From: Chromatiales bacterium
GTDB lineage: Bacteria; Pseudomonadota; Gammaproteobacteria; SZUA-152
NCBI GenBank assembly: GCA_026999335.1
Contig: JALTPW010000176.1
Span: 1 to 34,686, forward strand
DNA length: 34,686 nt
Direction: 5' to 3'
A program made the position numbers and the translations under genes. The stretch's first letter is position 1; each line of letters begins with the position of its first letter. This document shows positions 4,101 through 29,782 of the stretch, in pieces. Under the pieces are notes generated by a model that was given only the letters and a program-made list of their open reading frames with translations, did not search any database and was not told the origin of the DNA.

Positions 4101-5969
4101 ATGGCTGGGCAAAGATCGATTTCACCAGTTGAGCGCGCTGTCTATGAGCAGTTCGGGCTAGAGCCTGGGCTCGACCGCGCCGCCATTTTACCTTTTGCTG
4201 GACGTCGCAATGAGGGTAACTTAGAGTGGGCCGCCCCGCAATTTGTCTACGACTTGGCTAAGGCGTTTGTCGCCCCCGGTGTTGCGTTGCGTGGAGAGCA
4301 GGTTTCGCCCGAGGATGCGTTGAACGTTGGACTGAACGTTGTAGGTGGTGGGCTTGGTGCCTCTGCCGTTGCAGGGCCGAGCGGCAGGTCAGTTATCGGC
4401 ATGGCTGTTAAAGCAAAAGGAGGAAACTGGATCGAGAGCAGCATCGACCGATTTTTAGAGGGCGCGAAAAAGCCTGCTGAGTCTATTGGGACACTCGCTA
4501 ATGTTGATGCACTTCCAGAAAACACTTGGGTAACACTTGGAGACCAAGGTGTAACTAAGTATGTTAAACGCGTTGGCGACAAAGCATATACGTACAACGA
4601 ACCTGCGTATGCTGTAAATAATTGGGTCGACACCAAGCTAAGGAAATACGTTAAAAATGAGATGGCCGCACCTGACGACCCGGTGAGAAAGTTGGCTGAT
4701 GAGGAAGGCGTTTTACACTTTGAGCCTAACGTAGTCGGGTACGTGCCTGTTGATTGGGACGCGCCAACAAAACTAATTGGCACACTTCCAAGTGGACGCC
4801 GCGAACAATTTGCTGAAACTGATCTTGGACGCGTTTGGGAAGAGATTACTGATGCTAGTGTTTCTGGGCGGCGCGCTAGAGATTACACTATCGATGATCC
4901 AGCAGTCGACGCGGTCACTAAACGCGATCCGGAAACGCCAATTTTTGAAATTCCTGCATCTTCTGCCGCTGCAATGACACGGCGGTTGGGTCTTAGCCAC
5001 CTTACAGATGAGCTGTATAACGCAGTCGACCCGAACAGCGATTTGCCTGAGAGGTTAAAATTAACTCCCAAAAAGTTGCAAAAGATGTCAGTGCCACAGG
5101 CTGTCAAACATGTCGCAAAAATTAACAAGTGGCGAGAAGAGAGCAAATCAGCCGCGAACCTTGCCATTGCGAATAATGAAGCCACGTTCCCATTGATCGA
5201 ATATGATAATGGTACTAAGTGGGTAGAACTAAGAATGCCGACTGAGGAGGATGGTCCAGTAAAGTACACGGTTAATGATCTTGAGTACGATGGTGTTTCC
5301 AGCTCTCAAATTCATGCCATCGAAGACTACAAAGCGTGGACTGGTGGCGAAACACCTGAGGAGAACGGCTACACTGTTATTCCAGTCGGGGAGCGAGCCC
5401 TTGAAGAAGCACTTCGATATGAAGGTGATCAGATGGGCCACTGCGTCGGTGGATATTGTGATGAGGTTTTATCAGGCAGTTCTCGGATTTTTTCGTTGCG
5501 CGATAAAAAAGGTGAGCCGCACGTTACGATTGAAGTTGTCAATGAAAGTAGCCCATTTTCTGGAATTGGTCGCGTAAGTGATCTAGTCGAAACTATATTT
5601 GATACCGCAGACCCTGACGATGTTATGGTATTTGCTAAAGAGTTCGCCTCTGAATTAGGGGTGCCTCCCAGTGAAGTGACACTAGATTTTCTTGTTGATG
5701 CCATTTACGAAAGTCTTCGTAGTGAGCATGGCAAATATATTAACCCTGCAATGTCCACTGAAATTGGGCTAGATATTCTGAAGCAAATTAGCCCAAAAGC
5801 ATATAATGAAATTGCAAATCGTGGGCCAACATTTACTATTGAGCAAATCAAAGGACGCGCAAACAAAACACCGGCTAAAAAATACGTCCCAGCAATCAAA
5901 GACTTCATTAAAAAGATGGGTATTCCGCCCGAACGGATTTATGAGCCCGGCCCTTGGTCGGAGGATTAA
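4101..5969 (+). CDS. Large protein with C-terminal PcfJ-like domain, probable virion-associated accessory protein
   Basis: LEEALRYEGDQMGHCVGGYCDEVLSGSSRIFSLRDKKGEPHVTIEV plus FTIEQIKGRANKTPAKKYVPAIKDFIKKM match the PcfJ pattern; N-terminus WAAPQFVYDLAKAFVAPGVALRGEQVSPEDALNVGLNVVGGGLG resembles N-termini of large phage virion proteins. Confidence 0.75.
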   Translation: MAGQRSISPVERAVYEQFGLEPGLDRAAILPFAGRRNEGNLEWAAPQFVYDLAKAFVAPGVALRGEQVSPEDALNVGLNVVGGGLGASAVAGPSGRSVIGMAVKAKGGNWIESSIDRFLEGAKKPAESIGTLANVDALPENTWVTLGDQGVTKYVKRVGDKAYTYNEPAYAVNNWVDTKLRKYVKNEMAAPDDPVRKLADEEGVLHFEPNVVGYVPVDWDAPTKLIGTLPSGRREQFAETDLGRVWEEITDASVSGRRARDYTIDDPAVDAVTKRDPETPIFEIPASSAAAMTRRLGLSHLTDELYNAVDPNSDLPERLKLTPKKLQKMSVPQAVKHVAKINKWREESKSAANLAIANNEATFPLIEYDNGTKWVELRMPTEEDGPVKYTVNDLEYDGVSSSQIHAIEDYKAWTGGETPEENGYTVIPVGERALEEALRYEGDQMGHCVGGYCDEVLSGSSRIFSLRDKKGEPHVTIEVVNESSPFSGIGRVSDLVETIFDTADPDDVMVFAKEFASELGVPPSEVTLDFLVDAIYESLRSEHGKYINPAMSTEIGLDILKQISPKAYNEIANRGPTFTIEQIKGRANKTPAKKYVPAIKDFIKKMGIPPERIYEPGPWSED

Positions 5970-19925: not shown

Positions 19926-20396
19926 CTACTTAACCGATTTAAAATCTGCCCATCTACCCCTCGCCGCCTCTTCCCAAAGCTTCCGCGCCTCACCATCGTG
20001 AGCGTAGCGTTCACTGAAGATAATTTTCTGGCACGTGGTGTTGAGTAACAGCTTTGCGCACGTCACGCACGGGGAAGTTGTAACGTAACACGCATAAATC
20101 TTGTCGACGTCTTTGCATTGCAACAAGGCATTCTGCTCAGCGTGGATCGCCCTGCAATTATCGAGGTCCTCCCCGCTTGCCGCATTCGCACCGCTACACG
20201 CATGTAGAAACCCATTTTGGGTTCGTTCATTGCAATGTGGTACTCCGCGCGCGACGCCGTTGTAGCCCGTTGATAGCACACGACCGCTGGAATCAACCAG
20301 GACACAACCGACTTGCCTGCGCGCACATGTGCTCCTAAGCGCTGTAACCTCTGCCAGCATTAACGCCCACTCATCGATAGATAGTCGCTTAACCAT
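19926..20396 (-). CDS. dCMP deaminase
   Basis: CRAIHAEQNALLQC (HAE) and TTSPCVTCAKLLLNT (PCxxC) zinc motifs. Confidence 0.92.
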   Translation of the reverse strand: MVKRLSIDEWALMLAEVTALRSTCARRQVGCVLVDSSGRVLSTGYNGVARGVPHCNERTQNGFLHACSGANAASGEDLDNCRAIHAEQNALLQCKDVDKIYACYVTTSPCVTCAKLLLNTTCQKIIFSERYAHDGEARKLWEEAARGRWADFKSVK

Positions 20397-21195
20397 TAGA
20401 CGCCTCCCACCAACGCAACCTGTCACCTTTTGACGTGTCACGCAACATTGCTAGACGATCGAGCAACTCAAATTCGTCGAGGTGCAAAATTTCAGGTGTT
20501 AATGGTTGATCGTCTTCGTCAGAGCATCTATGGTGCGCGCTAAGCCGGAGCACATCAATAGCACTCTTCTTGTCAGTATCATATAAATGGGACGATGCTG
20601 CGGTCAAGAAAAGTATCCCGGGTTTCGCGCATACCGCAGCAGTGTTTAACTTTGCGCAGACCATGTGCGCTAGCATGCTGAAATTGAATACGTCATAAGG
20701 CAGTCCGAGCCACAGATCTGACGACCGCATAAACACGTGGCAATTCAGTTTGCCACGGCGTAGCGAAAATGAAATCGCAACCGTGCACGGCACATCCTTG
20801 GTTTCTGGTGGGTTCTCACGCCAAATAGTTAGTGTGGCCTGGCGTGTGTAGGAATCGCGTTTTAGCGCTGATATAACGTAATGCAACTGTGATTGGATGC
20901 GCGGGCCATACGCGCCAAAGAATGTAACACCGTCGTCGCTGTAATCAGCGATACGCTCATTGTACGACGCGATTGATGCTACTCGGTGATCGCCGGTAAG
21001 AATCCAAAACGCCTCAGCGGCCATAAATCGATACGATAATTTACGCTCCTTGATCGTGAGGACTGGGCGGCGCATATCAACTGTAAATGTTTGGTGCAAC
21101 AGCTCCGTTGTTACAGTGCCGCGCGGAGTAGCGATATCACCAAACTCGAGCATTCGATCCAACGCGTCTAGCCACATCGAATTAAACGATCTCAT
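20389..21195 (-). CDS. Thymidylate synthase family protein, probable dCMP hydroxymethylase
   Basis: VPCTVAISFSLRRGKLNCHVFMRSSDLWLGLPYDVFNFSMLAHMV: catalytic Cys, RSSD, HLY; Asp in LPYDV where TS has LPFN. Start 21195 follows GAGGAGG. Confidence 0.85.
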   Translation of the reverse strand: MRSFNSMWLDALDRMLEFGDIATPRGTVTTELLHQTFTVDMRRPVLTIKERKLSYRFMAAEAFWILTGDHRVASIASYNERIADYSDDGVTFFGAYGPRIQSQLHYVISALKRDSYTRQATLTIWRENPPETKDVPCTVAISFSLRRGKLNCHVFMRSSDLWLGLPYDVFNFSMLAHMVCAKLNTAAVCAKPGILFLTAASSHLYDTDKKSAIDVLRLSAHHRCSDEDDQPLTPEILHLDEFELLDRLAMLRDTSKGDRLRWWEASNG

Positions 21196-22096
21196 TGTAA
21201 ACCTCCTCAATTACCTGGATTAATTGATACGGACCGGTGGCATCGAAGCGTTTAGCGTATTGCGGATGCGGCACCTGGATAACGCCCAATCCGTACCCAC
21301 GCGCAACTGCTGCAGCCTCACGACCAAGCGCAATGTACGGCGCACCACTAGGTAGTAGACTGAGGTCTTGGTCGGCGTTGACCCACAGCAAATCTGCCTC
21401 GCTAACATTCGCGTCTTCAAGCTGTCTTGTTAACCACTGGCTGCATCCGCTGCCGCTAAACGATGCGAAAGGCCATTGGTAATGCGGGTCGAGATTTTTT
21501 CGCTGCGCAAAGCGTTCGCCAATTAAAATTACCGGAGCGCACCAATTGCCAGCACTGGCCAACTTAAGCGGGTGCAGCATTGACCTACGAGCAGCAACAA
21601 GTACTTGCTTCAGCTCCGGCTCGACTGTGTAGTCGTAATCAACGACCGGCAAACTAGTTTGCTGCTCACGGTAGAGCCGATAGATTTCACGCAATTGGTG
21701 CTCATTGTCTAAGTATTCTCGGTGCGCGCGTTCCCTGAACGTCCGCAATATGTGGTGCAATGGTGGCGCGCACCTGACCACAACAGCGCCACACCGCCAC
21801 GCTAACCGTTCAAGCATACGTTTGGTGGCCGCCCCAAGACGGTCGGCTCCCTGACGGAAAACTTTGCCGTATGGGTACTCGCTCAACCACGACCGGTCGA
21901 ACACGACATCCTGGTACCCGAGCACCGCTGGTAGCATTGTCTCGACGTACATGCGCGCCAGTCCTGTGCTAACGTGCGGCAGCGCGTCAAAATGCACATA
22001 CCGCGCTCCGGTGGCTTCGGCGTAGGCCTTCGCTGCGGTGGTTTTACCGCTGCAATCCGGCCCCTCGAAGATCGTCAGTCGTCGGCTTGTGTCCAT
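21182..22096 (-). CDS. P-loop (deoxynucleotide) kinase fused to a uracil-DNA-glycosylase-superfamily-like domain
   Basis: N-term IFEGPDCSGKTTAAKAYAEATGARYVHFD (Walker A); C-term VILIGER...PFASFSGSGCSQWLTRQLEDANVSEADLLWVNAD...APYIALGREAAAVARGYGLGVIQVPHPQYAKRF follows the UDG-fold pattern. Confidence 0.7.
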   Translation of the reverse strand: MDTSRRLTIFEGPDCSGKTTAAKAYAEATGARYVHFDALPHVSTGLARMYVETMLPAVLGYQDVVFDRSWLSEYPYGKVFRQGADRLGAATKRMLERLAWRCGAVVVRCAPPLHHILRTFRERAHREYLDNEHQLREIYRLYREQQTSLPVVDYDYTVEPELKQVLVAARRSMLHPLKLASAGNWCAPVILIGERFAQRKNLDPHYQWPFASFSGSGCSQWLTRQLEDANVSEADLLWVNADQDLSLLPSGAPYIALGREAAAVARGYGLGVIQVPHPQYAKRFDATGPYQLIQVIEEVYNEIV

Positions 22097-22485
22097 GAAA
22101 GCACCTCCTCGAGCCCAGTTTCAGGCCCCTGCCACCCAGCCGGCTTGACAACATCCAACGTAGTGCCTCGCTTAGAGTCGTCGGATGACTGCGCGCGCTC
22201 CTTTGACATGTTCGCGCGGTGGACGTGTAGCATGCCCAAGTCCCACTGTATTGGGGATACGCCCATGAACAAAGCAGTTCCGTAGGTCACGTAAGCGAGA
22301 TCGAGCAACGCGTCGAAGGCCCGCACGCGATCGCCTTTGTCCAGCGCCTCGCGCAGCTCGTCAAGCTCCTCTTGCAAGAACCTCACACGGAACTCAATCG
22401 CCTCAGAATTCCTGGTGAGCTCGTCACGTTCACCGTTCGGCAGGCCAAACTTTTCGTTGAACTCTCGTACCTTGTAGATACTCAT
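22075..22485 (-). CDS. MazG-like/PRA-PH-like nucleotide pyrophosphohydrolase
   Basis: FRVRFLQEELDELREALDKGDRVRAFDALLDLAYVTYGTALFMG: EExxE...D metal-binding helices. Confidence 0.82.
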   Translation of the reverse strand: MSIYKVREFNEKFGLPNGERDELTRNSEAIEFRVRFLQEELDELREALDKGDRVRAFDALLDLAYVTYGTALFMGVSPIQWDLGMLHVHRANMSKERAQSSDDSKRGTTLDVVKPAGWQGPETGLEEVLSWTQADD

Positions 22486-23279
22486 TTTGCTGCCCTCCTT
22501 TTAGTGCGGCGTTTCCGCCGAGTTGAAATAGGTTTTCTACAAACCCACAAGTTATTCCGTGCGTGGTCCGGGTACAACGGGCCAAAAATATTGCTCAGCG
22601 CATCGTTGTCATAGTACTCGCGCAACGCCTCTGCCACCTCGGCCACGGCTTCGCGGGAGCACCCACGAGGTTTCCCCTTGCCGATGTGCTTGATGTCCAT
22701 AAACGTACCAAACCGCCGTTCAACTGTAAACCCCTCGGCCTCAACGAGAGTACGGAGCTCCTCGACGGTATACTCGTGGATGTGGTTAGCCGCGTGACGA
22801 CGGCCGTCATAAACAGGCGTGGACATCAGCATTGTGCCACCGGGGCGCAAACAATTGTATGCTGCGCGCAGTAGATTCTTGCCGTGCTTTACCGCCATGT
22901 GCTCAATTACTTCGAGGTGCACCACTACATCGAAGTGGCCGTGCGCGTCGAGCAGTTCCGTGTAACGTGAGGTGAAGTCGAACTCGCCGTAGAAAGTCAA
23001 CCGTTGACTTTTGGACGGTTTCAACTTGTTCAGGTCGACGCCGACGTATTCGCTGACATGTGCGGCGGCGCCGCCTGTCAAAATCTTGCTCAATGGCTTC
23101 TCCTCGCCGCACCCTATTTCAAGGACCTTATCCTTGGCTGTGATATACCGCCGCGCGAAGGACCAACGGAAAAAGTGGGCAGTATAATCGCGGTGTAACG
23201 TCCGCCCGTGCGAGGTTGACTTGAGCTGTGTTGTGTCGAAATCACCCTTGTCCCGTTTCAACTTACGCGTTTTCGGCAT
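22482..23279 (-). CDS. Class I SAM-dependent methyltransferase
   Basis: KVLEIGCGEEKPLSKIL motif I, YVGVDLNKL, FDVVVHLEVIEHM, LRPGGTMLMSTP; start moved to ATG 23279. Confidence 0.85.
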   Translation of the reverse strand: MPKTRKLKRDKGDFDTTQLKSTSHGRTLHRDYTAHFFRWSFARRYITAKDKVLEIGCGEEKPLSKILTGGAAAHVSEYVGVDLNKLKPSKSQRLTFYGEFDFTSRYTELLDAHGHFDVVVHLEVIEHMAVKHGKNLLRAAYNCLRPGGTMLMSTPVYDGRRHAANHIHEYTVEELRTLVEAEGFTVERRFGTFMDIKHIGKGKPRGCSREAVAEVAEALREYYDNDALSNIFGPLYPDHARNNLWVCRKPISTRRKRRTKRRAAK

Positions 23280-23823
23280 TTTGCTTCTCCAATTGTCTGC
23301 GGTAGTACGATACGTAACTGCGGCGGTTATTGGCGAGCCCGAACTCGGCCTGCACCTTCGCAAAAATTTCATCGTCGTCGAGCACGCCCTCAGCAATTAA
23401 CGCGCGGAACATTTGCGCCGCGGACTTGTATTTGCTACTATCAACCTGCTGTTTCTTTCGCCTCCGTTTCCGTGAAACGTTGTCTTTGCCGCCTGATGGG
23501 CCGTTACTCCGCGCGGCCTGCAGCTCTATGTCGGCGCGCCACTGATCTGAGATTTGGCAAAATTTCGTCAACGCGTCGACTGCCTCAGTTGAGGCGCCGG
23601 TCGCCCGGGCAAATTCAAGATAATTCGCCGCCGCTTTTTCGATCGGGTAGTCGTCGAGTTTTGTGAATAGCGACGCGACTCTTTCGACAGATATTTGTTC
23701 GATGGTCATTGGCCGGTCAACGACGAGTCTAACAACTTTGGCCATTGACCTGGTGTTTTTCAGCACCAACATCGTGCGCCGATTATGGTCATGGTAAACT
23801 CCGACCAATTTATTTCTTCTCAT
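23263..23823 (-). CDS. Hypothetical protein with C-terminal phage domain (KSAAQMFRALIAEGVLDDDEIFAKVQAEFG...YVSYYRRQLEK)
   Basis: ATG 23823 after GAGAGGTGG; C-terminal domain shared with the ORF at 24305-24697. Confidence 0.65.
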   Translation of the reverse strand: MRRNKLVGVYHDHNRRTMLVLKNTRSMAKVVRLVVDRPMTIEQISVERVASLFTKLDDYPIEKAAANYLEFARATGASTEAVDALTKFCQISDQWRADIELQAARSNGPSGGKDNVSRKRRRKKQQVDSSKYKSAAQMFRALIAEGVLDDDEIFAKVQAEFGLANNRRSYVSYYRRQLEKQNAENA

Positions 23824-24031
23824 TTTTCCACCTCTCTGCAATCACAAGTAATTCGACCAGGCCAGCCACCCAAACGCGAGATTCTTCGAGCGTAAACGGC
23901 CCGAAGGGCCACCAATGCAGACGGATGTCACCGTTAGCGCGTCGCTCAAGTAGTGCACGTTGTCGTCCACCAAACAAAAGTTTAGCATTATTTTCGCCCA
24001 CGACTATCTCCATATCTTCGACTTTATCCAT
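23810..24031 (-). CDS. Small hypothetical protein
   Basis: ATG 24031 preceded by GAGGAGAGG; first gene after promoter at 24068-24110. Confidence 0.6.
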   Translation of the reverse strand: MDKVEDMEIVVGENNAKLLFGGRQRALLERRANGDIRLHWWPFGPFTLEESRVWVAGLVELLVIAERWKNEKK

Positions 24032-24304: not shown

Positions 24305-24697
24305 TCAATCCTCAAAAATCCGAATTGCTTGTGTACCAGTGCGTTGATGCGCTGGATAGTCAAACGCGGGCGGCAGAAGCCCTTTGCGCCGCAGCTCAGC
24401 CCGGTACCACGCCGGGTACTTATACCGGGTTGTGATGTAGTCCTCACCGTAAACTTCAACCATCTTGGCCAAAATTTCGTCGTTCGTGTAACCATCCAAA
24501 ATCATCGTTCGGCAGAAGTCACCAATACCACCAGGATTTTTACGGTGCACGTTGTAGACATAATCCTCAGCCTCTTCCAAATAACATTCAATCGTGCCAT
24601 CATCATTCTCGACTAGGAATTTTTCATAATCTCTACGCCGTACACCAATTCGTCGAAGCGCTTTGATGGCCGATCTTTTTGAATTGAAAATCTTCAT
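24305..24697 (-). CDS. Hypothetical protein sharing the DEI(L/F)AK...YR.(E/Q)L domain
   Basis: GDFCRTMILDGYTNDEILAKMVEVYGEDYITTRYKYPAWYRAELRRKGLLPP; 4-bp overlap with upstream helicase gene. Confidence 0.65.
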   Translation of the reverse strand: MKIFNSKRSAIKALRRIGVRRRDYEKFLVENDDGTIECYLEEAEDYVYNVHRKNPGGIGDFCRTMILDGYTNDEILAKMVEVYGEDYITTRYKYPAWYRAELRRKGLLPPAFDYPAHQRTGTQAIRIFED

Positions 24698-27163: not shown

Positions 27164-27864
27164 TGACCACCTCCGTTAGCTCTGTTAGACTGTCTAAAAA
27201 AACACCAATTACATAGATTGGACGGGCGCGGCGCAAAGCATGTGTCGGATAGCATCGGCTTTACTCGCCGTTCCCATGCACTGATCAAATCATCGAGCTG
27301 GTCGCGGGTGTAGAAGATAGCCGGTTCATCAGGCCCCGGGTGTGTCTGTCCAATATCGAGGTAGACCAATTCAGCGCGCACCCGCTCGACATCGACACAT
27401 GATAACAACCCGCCAAGAGCGTATAATTGCAGCTGTTCCAAATACTCCGCGTGCTTCTCAGGCCGATATTTGCCAGTTTTCCAATCGCGTACGATCAGCT
27501 CATTACCACTTCGCTCGGCACAGTCGACCTTAATACGCACCCGGCATCCAGACCAATCGTCCCAAGTCGTCGGTGTCCAAGATGCAGTAAAGGCCCAAGT
27601 ATCTTCGATAATCAGCGAACCATCCCGCTTTGAAAATTTTCGGCGAAGACGTCTAAACAGCTTACTGAATTGTCGTAGCTCATTGGGCAAACTATCTAGC
27701 TCACCCTTAATGAACGCTTCAGCTAAGTTGTGAATTTCAACGCCACGCTGCATGGCAGCATTAGGCGGCTCTTTAATACGATCAATAAATTTCAGTTTAG
27801 CCTTTAGCGGACACTGTTGGTAATCCGCATATCGGCTAAACGACCAACTTGTGATATTCTGCAC
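27148..27864 (-). CDS. PD-(D/E)XK nuclease, Cas4/RecB-like
   Basis: SWSFSRYADYQQCPLKAKLKFID, GVEIHNLAEAFIKGEL, LIVRDWKTGKYRPEKHAEYLEQLQLYAL, C-terminal Cys residues. GTG 27864 with AGGAG is a likely start; track start is 27885. Confidence 0.82.
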   Translation of the reverse strand: MQNITSWSFSRYADYQQCPLKAKLKFIDRIKEPPNAAMQRGVEIHNLAEAFIKGELDSLPNELRQFSKLFRRLRRKFSKRDGSLIIEDTWAFTASWTPTTWDDWSGCRVRIKVDCAERSGNELIVRDWKTGKYRPEKHAEYLEQLQLYALGGLLSCVDVERVRAELVYLDIGQTHPGPDEPAIFYTRDQLDDLISAWERRVKPMLSDTCFAPRPSNLCNWCFFRQSNRANGGGQCQFY

Positions 27865-29782
27865 AAAGTTCTCCTTTCTTGTCATAGGGAATTAACTCGG
27901 CCCAGTTAGTTGTGCTAACTGAACCCTCACTCAGCATGGGAACGTCAAATTCGACTGATTCCATAGCCTCACGCAAGGCTTCCATTGCAACCTGGGTATC
28001 TTCGCGCGGCACGGACACGGTAATTTGGTCATGCACGTTTAGCGCTAGCCGCCAACTTGGACGCTTAACGTCAAAAAATCTAATTAACGCCTCCTTCGTG
28101 CAGTCGGCAGCTGAGCCTTGGATCAATACGTTAACCAGCTTATAGTCAAACTTGCGCAACTTGCCGCCAACGAGTTTGGGTGGCTCGCAGTAGTATTCAC
28201 GACCACCCCAAGTTCGAATCGGTAAGTTCAACGCAGCACGCTGCTTCATGTCACTGTACATCTCTCTTAGCCCAGGGTAGAGCTGGAGGATGGCAGATTT
28301 TAACGCTTTCGATTCCTCGACAGACATGTTATTCTTCTCCGCCAGCTTGCCAACCCCCATGCCGTAAATCAAGCCTAAATTCGTGTTCTTGACTGGTTTG
28401 CGCGGGTAATACTTCCCTCGTTTAGCAAGCTCCTCTTGCGCTGAATCATGGAAGTCAATCCACGGATTTTCAATGTACTTTTGTTGTAGTGCGCCGCCGT
28501 CGAAGTGCGCAAGAATGCGTGGTTCTTGTTGACTGTAGTCGCGGTCGATAAATACGTGCCCGTCCCACGGCACAATGTAACTGCGCACTAATGGGAGCGG
28601 CGGCAGTCCGTTAAACGGGCAACGCGGCAGGGTCTTACGTTTAACGCGATCGGTTACTTCATGCTTAAACAGCGGCTCAAATTCATTGGGGATGTTCTGG
28701 AAGTTCGGTGTTGACGAAAGTCTACCTGTCCGCGTGCCGACGTTATCCTTACCTTTAGGGCTGCGCACCTGGTTCCACTGCGTGTAAATTAGTCCACCCG
28801 ACGCCTCAGCTACGCGCAGCCAAGGCTCCATAAACGTACCGAGACACGTGGACAACTGCGCGCGATACGCGAGCACTGCGAGCAACTGTCTGTCTGATAC
28901 AGCCCGCAGGAGTGCGTCTTTATTGGTCTGGAATTTACCTGTTTTTGTGCGAAGCGCTTTGCTCTCATCAATGACCCCAGCTCGCAACATGGCGTCGAAC
29001 AACTGCGCGCCGGAATTTAGATTCACGTCATCGCCGCAATTCAACCGCCGACGCAACCACGCATCAATTCGGCGGTGCCACTGCGCGTACATTTCGACGT
29101 CAGCACGCAGCCGTGGCAAGTCAACTGGCAACCCCTGCCGCTCCATCTCGAGCAGGACCGGCAACAAGCGACGCTCACGGTCGTACGCCTCAGACATGCC
29201 GCGGTCAATTGTCTTCTTATGCAACAATTCGAACAGCGCCTCAGTGCGCTCAACGTCACCTGCCGCGTACTTCCCGACCAAGTCGCCAGGGGCGTAAGCG
29301 AGATAGCGGCCAAAGTAATGCGGACTGTTCTTAGACTTACTAATGCGGACCCCTGGAACTGGTTGGTGTTCGAGTAGCCACTCACCGACAGCATCACGCT
29401 CTTCGGCCGGCCAATTGAGCAGCCGTGCCGCGGCTTCCTTCAGCCCAAGCTCACGTTGATGAGGATCATCCAAGAACAGCAAAAACATCGTGTCGTGCAC
29501 ACGCTGCCAATTAGGCACCGCGAGCCCAAACCAAACCTCGATAACATCAAGATCAAACTTAGCGTTTTGAAACAGAACCCCGCCGCGGTGACGATACGCC
29601 TTTCGCAGCGCCTTGGCGGCCGTACCCCAACCGCAATTATTGGCTGTTGCATGGCCAAATGCATAGTACTCCGCGCGCTTACCTGGATATTTAATCGCGA
29701 CACCTACCGGTTGCGGCGGGTAGTGCGGCCTGCCCTCGATGCCGAAGGTTTCAACGTCGACGGTAACTGGCAGACGCCGCAT
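27836..29782 (-). CDS. DNA polymerase I-like (family A) with 3'-5' exonuclease domain
   Basis: VTVDVETFG exo motif; HVFIDRDYSQQEPRILAHF (motif A), RKPVKNTNLGLIYGMG (motif B), ALNVHDQITVSVP (motif C). Confidence 0.95.
   Translation of the reverse strand: MRRLPVTVDVETFGIEGRPHYPPQPVGVAIKYPGKRAEYYAFGHATANNCGWGTAAKALRKAYRHRGGVLFQNAKFDLDVIEVWFGLAVPNWQRVHDTMFLLFLDDPHQRELGLKEAAARLLNWPAEERDAVGEWLLEHQPVPGVRISKSKNSPHYFGRYLAYAPGDLVGKYAAGDVERTEALFELLHKKTIDRGMSEAYDRERRLLPVLLEMERQGLPVDLPRLRADVEMYAQWHRRIDAWLRRRLNCGDDVNLNSGAQLFDAMLRAGVIDESKALRTKTGKFQTNKDALLRAVSDRQLLAVLAYRAQLSTCLGTFMEPWLRVAEASGGLIYTQWNQVRSPKGKDNVGTRTGRLSSTPNFQNIPNEFEPLFKHEVTDRVKRKTLPRCPFNGLPPLPLVRSYIVPWDGHVFIDRDYSQQEPRILAHFDGGALQQKYIENPWIDFHDSAQEELAKRGKYYPRKPVKNTNLGLIYGMGVGKLAEKNNMSVEESKALKSAILQLYPGLREMYSDMKQRAALNLPIRTWGGREYYCEPPKLVGGKLRKFDYKLVNVLIQGSAADCTKEALIRFFDVKRPSWRLALNVHDQITVSVPREDTQVAMEALREAMESVEFDVPMLSEGSVSTTNWAELIPYDKKGELCAEYHKLVV

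Follow-up and report, generated by a model that had tools for sequence, protein, structure and literature searches.

The thymidylate synthase (TS) family gene in the window (the whole stretch of DNA analysed, which is one entire contig, C176, of 34.7 kb in an assembly of 1068 contigs) very probably encodes a dCMP 5-hydroxymethylase of the T4 gp42 type, judging from the residues that determine substrate and reaction. The window encodes a podovirus with a P22-type portal and coat; no terminal repeat was found on the contig. As with phage T4, the DNA of this phage is probably disguised chemically from bacterial DNA-cutting defences. Phage enzymes with Asp177 follow an established pattern and the hydroxymethylase chemistry itself is not new; less familiar is the fusion of a kinase with a glycosylase fold. 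Our analysis contributes the full set of specificity residues, the strand and operon of the gene, a connection to the restriction resistance of phage AXL3, and the linkage of the gene with a kinase–UDG-like fusion and a methyltransferase (Table 1).

Table 1. Genes of the operon, domains and diagnostic codons, with positions in the window
Feature	Position	Strand	Basis
dCMP deaminase, start codon within the end of the hydroxymethylase gene	19926..20396	-	PF00383 E 2.6e-18, PF14437
Predicted dCMP hydroxymethylase (TS family), 268 aa	20389..21195	-	PF00303, residue signature, AF2 pLDDT 91, SD GAGGAGG
Codon of Asp168 (E. coli TS Asn177, T4 Asp179), cytosine selection	20692..20694	-	alignment
Codon of Ser158 (E. 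coli TS Ser167), deoxyribose type; Ala in MilA	20722..20724	-	PMC5175136
Codon of Thr138 (E. coli TS His147, T4 Thr)	20782..20784	-	alignment; PMC8670742
Codon of catalytic Cys137 (E. coli TS Cys146)	20785..20787	-	alignment
Codon of Asp134 (T4 Asp145), water activation leading to hydroxymethyl	20794..20796	-	alignment; PMC6400193
Codon of Arg118 (E. coli TS Arg126); Lys in MilA	20842..20844	-	alignment; PMC5175136
P-loop (d)NMP-kinase-like domain with UDG-like C-terminal domain, 304 aa	21182..22096	-	phrog_761; YorR/TMK fold; AF2 pLDDT 90
UDG-family-4-like domain, about residues 183-290	21227..21550	-	hhalign
MazG/PRA-PH-type nucleotide pyrophosphohydrolase, candidate dCTPase	22075..22485	-	PF01503 E 1.6e-11; phrog_671
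Predicted class I SAM methyltransferase, exact start uncertain	22482..23279	-	PF13489 E 8.3e-16; relatives adjoin hydroxymethylase

Gene, residue signature and substrate

The position given for the gene in the preliminary description (20389-21195) is correct. It reads 21195→20389 on the minus strand, and the plus strand of this interval is crowded with stop codons. Two starts are available: a TTG at 21210, which the list of open reading frames permits, and the ATG at 21195, which has a strong Shine-Dalgarno sequence (GAGGAGG) just 5' of it. The protein matches PF00303 (Pfam, E 8.9e-24) and phrog_5131 (E 5e-43), whereas the NCBIfam TS equivalogs, with cut-offs of 108 bits and more, give it 63 bits at most.

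Residues are numbered after E. coli TS below unless indicated otherwise. The motif around position 177 is MRSSDLWLGLPYDVFNFSM. Alignment with E. coli TS, T4 gp42, SPO1 gp29 and the ThyA of the MAG that contains the window agrees with the preliminary description that Asp occupies the Asn177 position and that the catalytic Cys (137 in the window enzyme) is kept, as are the equivalents of His207 and Tyr209. Equivalents of Glu58 and Arg166 are present too, and an Asp stands three positions before the catalytic Cys (DVPC). Over six positions the window enzyme reads R126/D143/C146/T147/S167/D177, identical to T4 gp42, against R/L/C/H/S/N in TS and R/D/C/N/S/N in the SPO1 dUMP hydroxymethylase.

Asp177 confers cytosine selection (PMC8670742; PMC6400193), and in MetaGPA residues 147 and 177 were the best separators between cytosine-modified and unmodified phage contigs (PMC8670742). 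The exchange of Asn for Asp had earlier been taken as the hallmark of dCMP specificity in T4 gp42-type hydroxymethylases. It does stand as a mark of dCMP preference, but alone it is no proof of hydroxymethylation, since a TS mutant with this exchange forms 5-methyl-dCMP (PMC8670742). As Asp177 is insufficient alone, the hydroxymethylation step would be supplied by the Asp at the T4 Asp145 position, together with Thr at 147. T4 Asp145 is a hydroxymethylase signature, and the D145N mutant forms no hm-dCMP (PMC6400193). Taken together, Asp143, Thr147, Asp177 and the Arg126/Ser167 pair argue for the original suggestion that the phage makes 5-hydroxymethyl-dCMP.

The methylating TS mutant also lends some weight to a dCMP methyltransferase as in phage Xp12, which would make 5-methyl-dCMP and lead to 5-methylcytosine in the virion. 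We consider this very unlikely. Asp143, the hydroxymethylation signature, replaces the Leu of TS (PMC6400193), Trp80 and Trp83 of TS are absent from the window enzyme in the alignment, and methylation would need a dihydrofolate reductase (DHFR) for folate recycling, whereas none was identified among the window proteins scanned.

Still less probable is dUMP as the substrate, with the enzyme being an ordinary thymidylate synthase or a SPO1-type dUMP hydroxymethylase. Membership of the TS family, the neighbouring dCMP deaminase (which produces dUMP) and the likeness of the kinase to thymidylate kinases would fit such a role. However, close relatives have Asp for Asn177 and Thr for His147, and the resistance of AXL3 DNA follows G/C-containing sites rather than A/T-only sites. 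Moreover, AXL3 encodes a ThyX that covers dTMP, so the hydroxymethylase-type gene is not needed for this purpose. ThyA identity was rejected on Asp, Thr and Asp at 177, 147 and 143 (against Asn177, His147 and Leu143), and the SPO1 type, which shares Asp143 and the TS fold but has Asn147 and Asn177, on Asp177. The MAG also has an ordinary ThyA; no ThyX was found in it.

The closest solved fold to the AlphaFold (AF2) model of the window enzyme (pLDDT 91) is the cytidylate hydroxymethylase MilA, at 1.4 Å over 228 columns and ahead of all TS entries. MilA is also among the top PDB sequence matches and has the equivalents of Asp143, Thr147 and Asp177, so it might be argued that the window enzyme hydroxymethylates the ribonucleotide CMP for an antibiotic-like nucleoside. 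This is extremely improbable, because Ala176 and Lys133 of MilA are Ser and Arg in the window enzyme, the pair (Ser167 and Arg126) that converts MilA from CMP to dCMP (PMC5175136). This deoxyribose-type pair argues against the ribonucleotide type, and MilA and BcmA were rejected as identities on the same two residues. The gene, furthermore, sits in a phage replication operon.

The preferred assignment as a dCMP hydroxymethylase agrees with the conservation of the signature. Asp177 is present in 39/39 viral-contig relatives retrieved with the window protein. It is likewise found in all 131 alignable TS-family proteins from loci retrieved via the neighbouring kinase (n=80) and methyltransferase (n=56), 129 of which have the complete T4-like residue set; the two locus sets overlap in contigs, both mutually and with the 39-contig set, so these counts are not independent. 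Its presence in all of these proteins indicates that the Asp is not due to chance or a sequencing slip. Among annotated phages, the single exception in the close set is Glutamicibacter phage Montesquieu, with Asn177 and thymine-hypermodification genes on its flanks. Against the assignment, the closest homologues are labelled variously as thymidylate synthase, pyrimidine hmase or deoxyuridylate hydroxymethyltransferase. The current database label thymidylate synthase conceals a probable cytosine modification.

In the tree, the enzymes of the window, AXL3, PW916 and the Manatee Spring phage ctUtU524 belong to one supported clade, which comprises 33 rows. T4 gp42 groups elsewhere on an end branch of 7.0, a placement that is unsure given the branch length, and its overall similarity to the window enzyme is very low. 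Given this very long separate branch, the common signature may be convergent rather than due to descent.

Signatures of this kind were also seen outside the close set. TS-family genes that encode Asp177 and Ser167, and mostly Asp143, occur on bacterial chromosomes or contigs (L056-L071; Comamonadaceae, Micromonosporaceae and others); they are dCMP-type rather than MilA-type. Bacillus phage G gp319 (L077:1465-2511) has D143/T147/D177 as well, and its dCMP deaminase gp317 adjoins.

Operon context and the resistance of AXL3 DNA

The hydroxymethylase gene is one of five overlapping minus-strand genes, in the order methyltransferase, MazG/PRA-PH pyrophosphohydrolase, kinase fusion, hydroxymethylase and dCMP deaminase. 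The MetaGPA study reports TS together with PRA-PH, dCMP deaminase and MafB19-like deaminase domains on cytosine-modified contigs, and the Asp177 TS-family proteins found there resemble the window enzyme in Asp177, an altered residue 147 and co-occurring PF01503 and PF00383 (PMC8670742). A difference from those contigs is that no carbamoyltransferase was seen among the window proteins scanned. Among the same proteins there was no glycosyltransferase next to the gene. A scan for defence systems yielded nothing beyond generic similarities to helicases, kinases, deaminases and methyltransferases.

Linkage with the methyltransferase is tight: the hydroxymethylase is near it in 52/56 methyltransferase loci, the remaining 4 being short (5.2-6.4 kb). 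Only 5 of 50,697 GenBank phage records contain this methyltransferase, each of them together with a hydroxymethylase of the window type.

Apart from T4 gp42 being very distant in sequence, the T4 system differs in gene content: the window operon has MazG, the kinase-UDG fusion and the methyltransferase, and no glucosyltransferase was found. T4 also encodes a dCMP deaminase and a dNMP kinase.

The same five-gene order occurs in Stenotrophomonas phage AXL3 (gp31-gp27) and Pseudoxanthomonas phage PW916, at 37-65% identity per protein to the window operon. AXL3 is a siphovirus with ThyX, whereas the window represents a P22-portal podovirus without it. The AXL3 enzyme, gp28 (L042), has the full T4-like residue set. 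AXL3 DNA blocked 35/37 restriction enzymes and was cut by TasI and Tru1I, which have A/T-only sites; the authors of that work took gp28 for a thymidylate synthase and gave no explanation of the modification (PMC7504290). Our analysis offers a gene-level explanation for this resistance. Both the operon context and the resistance of AXL3 DNA to restriction thereby lend support, by analogy, to the proposal in the preliminary description that the virion DNA may carry modified cytosine.

The blocked enzymes include KpnI and Eam1105I (AhdI specificity) (PMC7504290), for which AXL3 has 13 and 14 sites, respectively (40.8 kb examined). By contrast, Xp12 DNA, which contains 5-methylcytosine only, is cut completely by KpnI and AhdI (PMC7653180). 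Plain 5-methylcytosine is therefore disfavoured, which also speaks against the Xp12-type methyltransferase discussed above. Resistance amounts to 95% for AXL3 against 82% for mostly hmC DNA and 94% for glucosylated T4 DNA, the latter two obtained with a different, larger panel (PMC7653180), so that this level does not settle whether hydroxymethylcytosine is decorated further. The resistance of AXL3 could also stem partly from another modification.

Two further observations concern the surroundings of the operon. In one relative (L038:5223-5894) a weakly HhH-GPD DNA-glycosylase-like protein lies closely 5' of the methyltransferase-MazG-hydroxymethylase cluster. On the operon side of the window, the proteins at 23263-23841 and 24305-24697 apparently have one C-terminal motif in common (about MFxxLIxxGxxxDDEIF...FxLxxxxRxYxxWYRxxL), which is also seen in relatives.

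The kinase–UDG-like fusion

The N-terminal half of the fusion resembles YorR and thymidylate kinases, and the C-terminal half is collinear with family-4 uracil-DNA glycosylases (1vk2 at E 0.053). The fold search was dominated by the kinase domain, and the UDG assignment rests on profile comparison. With hhalign the C-terminal domain scored 34.9 against UDG family 4 (P 6.5e-5, probability 64%), while the best of 30 column-shuffled controls reached 18.4. The motif order expected of UDG family 4 is GExPG - PF..G - N - LG..A - HP; the Fe-S cysteines of this family were not seen in the domain. Literature searches for a link between kinase and glycosylase, or with MazG, returned no papers.

In all 76 fused loci retrieved, the fetched flanks include a TS-family gene, with Asp177 wherever the protein could be aligned. 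Other relatives have the kinase without the UDG-like domain (L024-L026, L033-L036, L047, L052), and still others lack the kinase and have a DUF1599-like protein instead of it; among the close relatives, L004, L007 and L012 are without any kinase. The most probable role of the fusion is that of an hm-dCMP kinase, as T4 gp1, with the UDG-like domain as an accessory and not as part of a DNA-level hypermodifying enzyme. The YorR/TMK fold of the kinase domain is in line with this, as is the fact that an unfused kinase directly precedes the hydroxymethylase in many relatives. On the other hand, the UDG-like domain is retained in divergent phages, always beside a TS-family gene of the window type, and some close relatives do without the kinase, which suggests that it is not essential for incorporation. 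Overall, a nucleotide-pool kinase with an accessory domain fits the pattern of fused, unfused and kinase-less relatives best.

It is rather unlikely, but conceivable, that the fusion is a bifunctional cytosine hypermodifier. Its kinase would then act on hmC in DNA, phosphorylating the 5-hydroxymethyl group, and its glycosylase-fold domain would have taken on a new role as a transferase or base reader that helps to replace the phosphate. If true, the thymine hypermodification pathways would have a cytosine counterpart contained in a single polypeptide, and the methyltransferase might carry out a finishing step. Those pathways (5hmdU DNA kinase) likewise combine a hydroxymethylase with a kinase, and they have a glycosylase-fold partner that is comparable to the window fusion by analogy only. 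They differ in that the window base is C, not U, and in that its glycosylase-like domain is of the UDG type and fused to the kinase.

Two relatives deserve mention here. Gp315 of Bacillus phage G is a distant structural match to the fusion. In L024:4746-7975 the hydroxymethylase and an unfused kinase lie beside a PLP-dependent-type enzyme (PALP, phrog_7093) and an uncharacterised 380-aa protein; this gene set resembles a hypermodification set, yet the hydroxymethylase is of the cytosine type.

Proposed pathway and further observations

If the chemistry follows that of T4, Cys137 of the window enzyme would attack C6 of dCMP, Asp168 would hold the cytosine edge and Glu61 would activate methylene-tetrahydrofolate. 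Asp134 would then activate a water that attacks the exocyclic methylene, giving 5-hydroxymethyl-dCMP with the folate not oxidised. In the nucleotide pool, dCMP probably arises through hydrolysis of dCTP by the MazG-type protein, the kinase would return hm-dCMP to the triphosphate pool and the deaminase would supply dUMP for thymidylate. The phage DNA polymerase would incorporate hydroxymethylcytosine instead of cytosine and, more speculatively, the co-inherited methyltransferase and glycosylase-like domain may decorate it further. The expected outcome is protection from restriction.

The implication is that modified cytosine probably occurs in the DNA of a phage lineage that is widespread and mostly uncultured and to which at least one phage put forward for therapeutic use (AXL3) belongs. 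The strict linkage with the kinase–glycosylase-fold fusion and one methyltransferase provides specific candidates for new cytosine modifications.

The PolA-type DNA polymerase of the window (27836-29782) partially matches the DpoZ model (164 bits against a cut-off of 500). We did not accept this as a sign of 2-aminoadenine; PurZ had no match among the window proteins scanned. In the virion module, a 622-aa protein (4101-5969) has a PcfJ-like stretch at residues 436-481. Finally, Microbacterium phage Eula (ON724018; L082:411-2409) encodes a TS-family protein that combines Asp177 with Ile143 and Trp80/Trp83 as in TS; a dihydrofolate reductase gene lies two genes before it. This protein looks like a dCMP methyltransferase, and these phages may carry 5-methylcytosine like Xp12.
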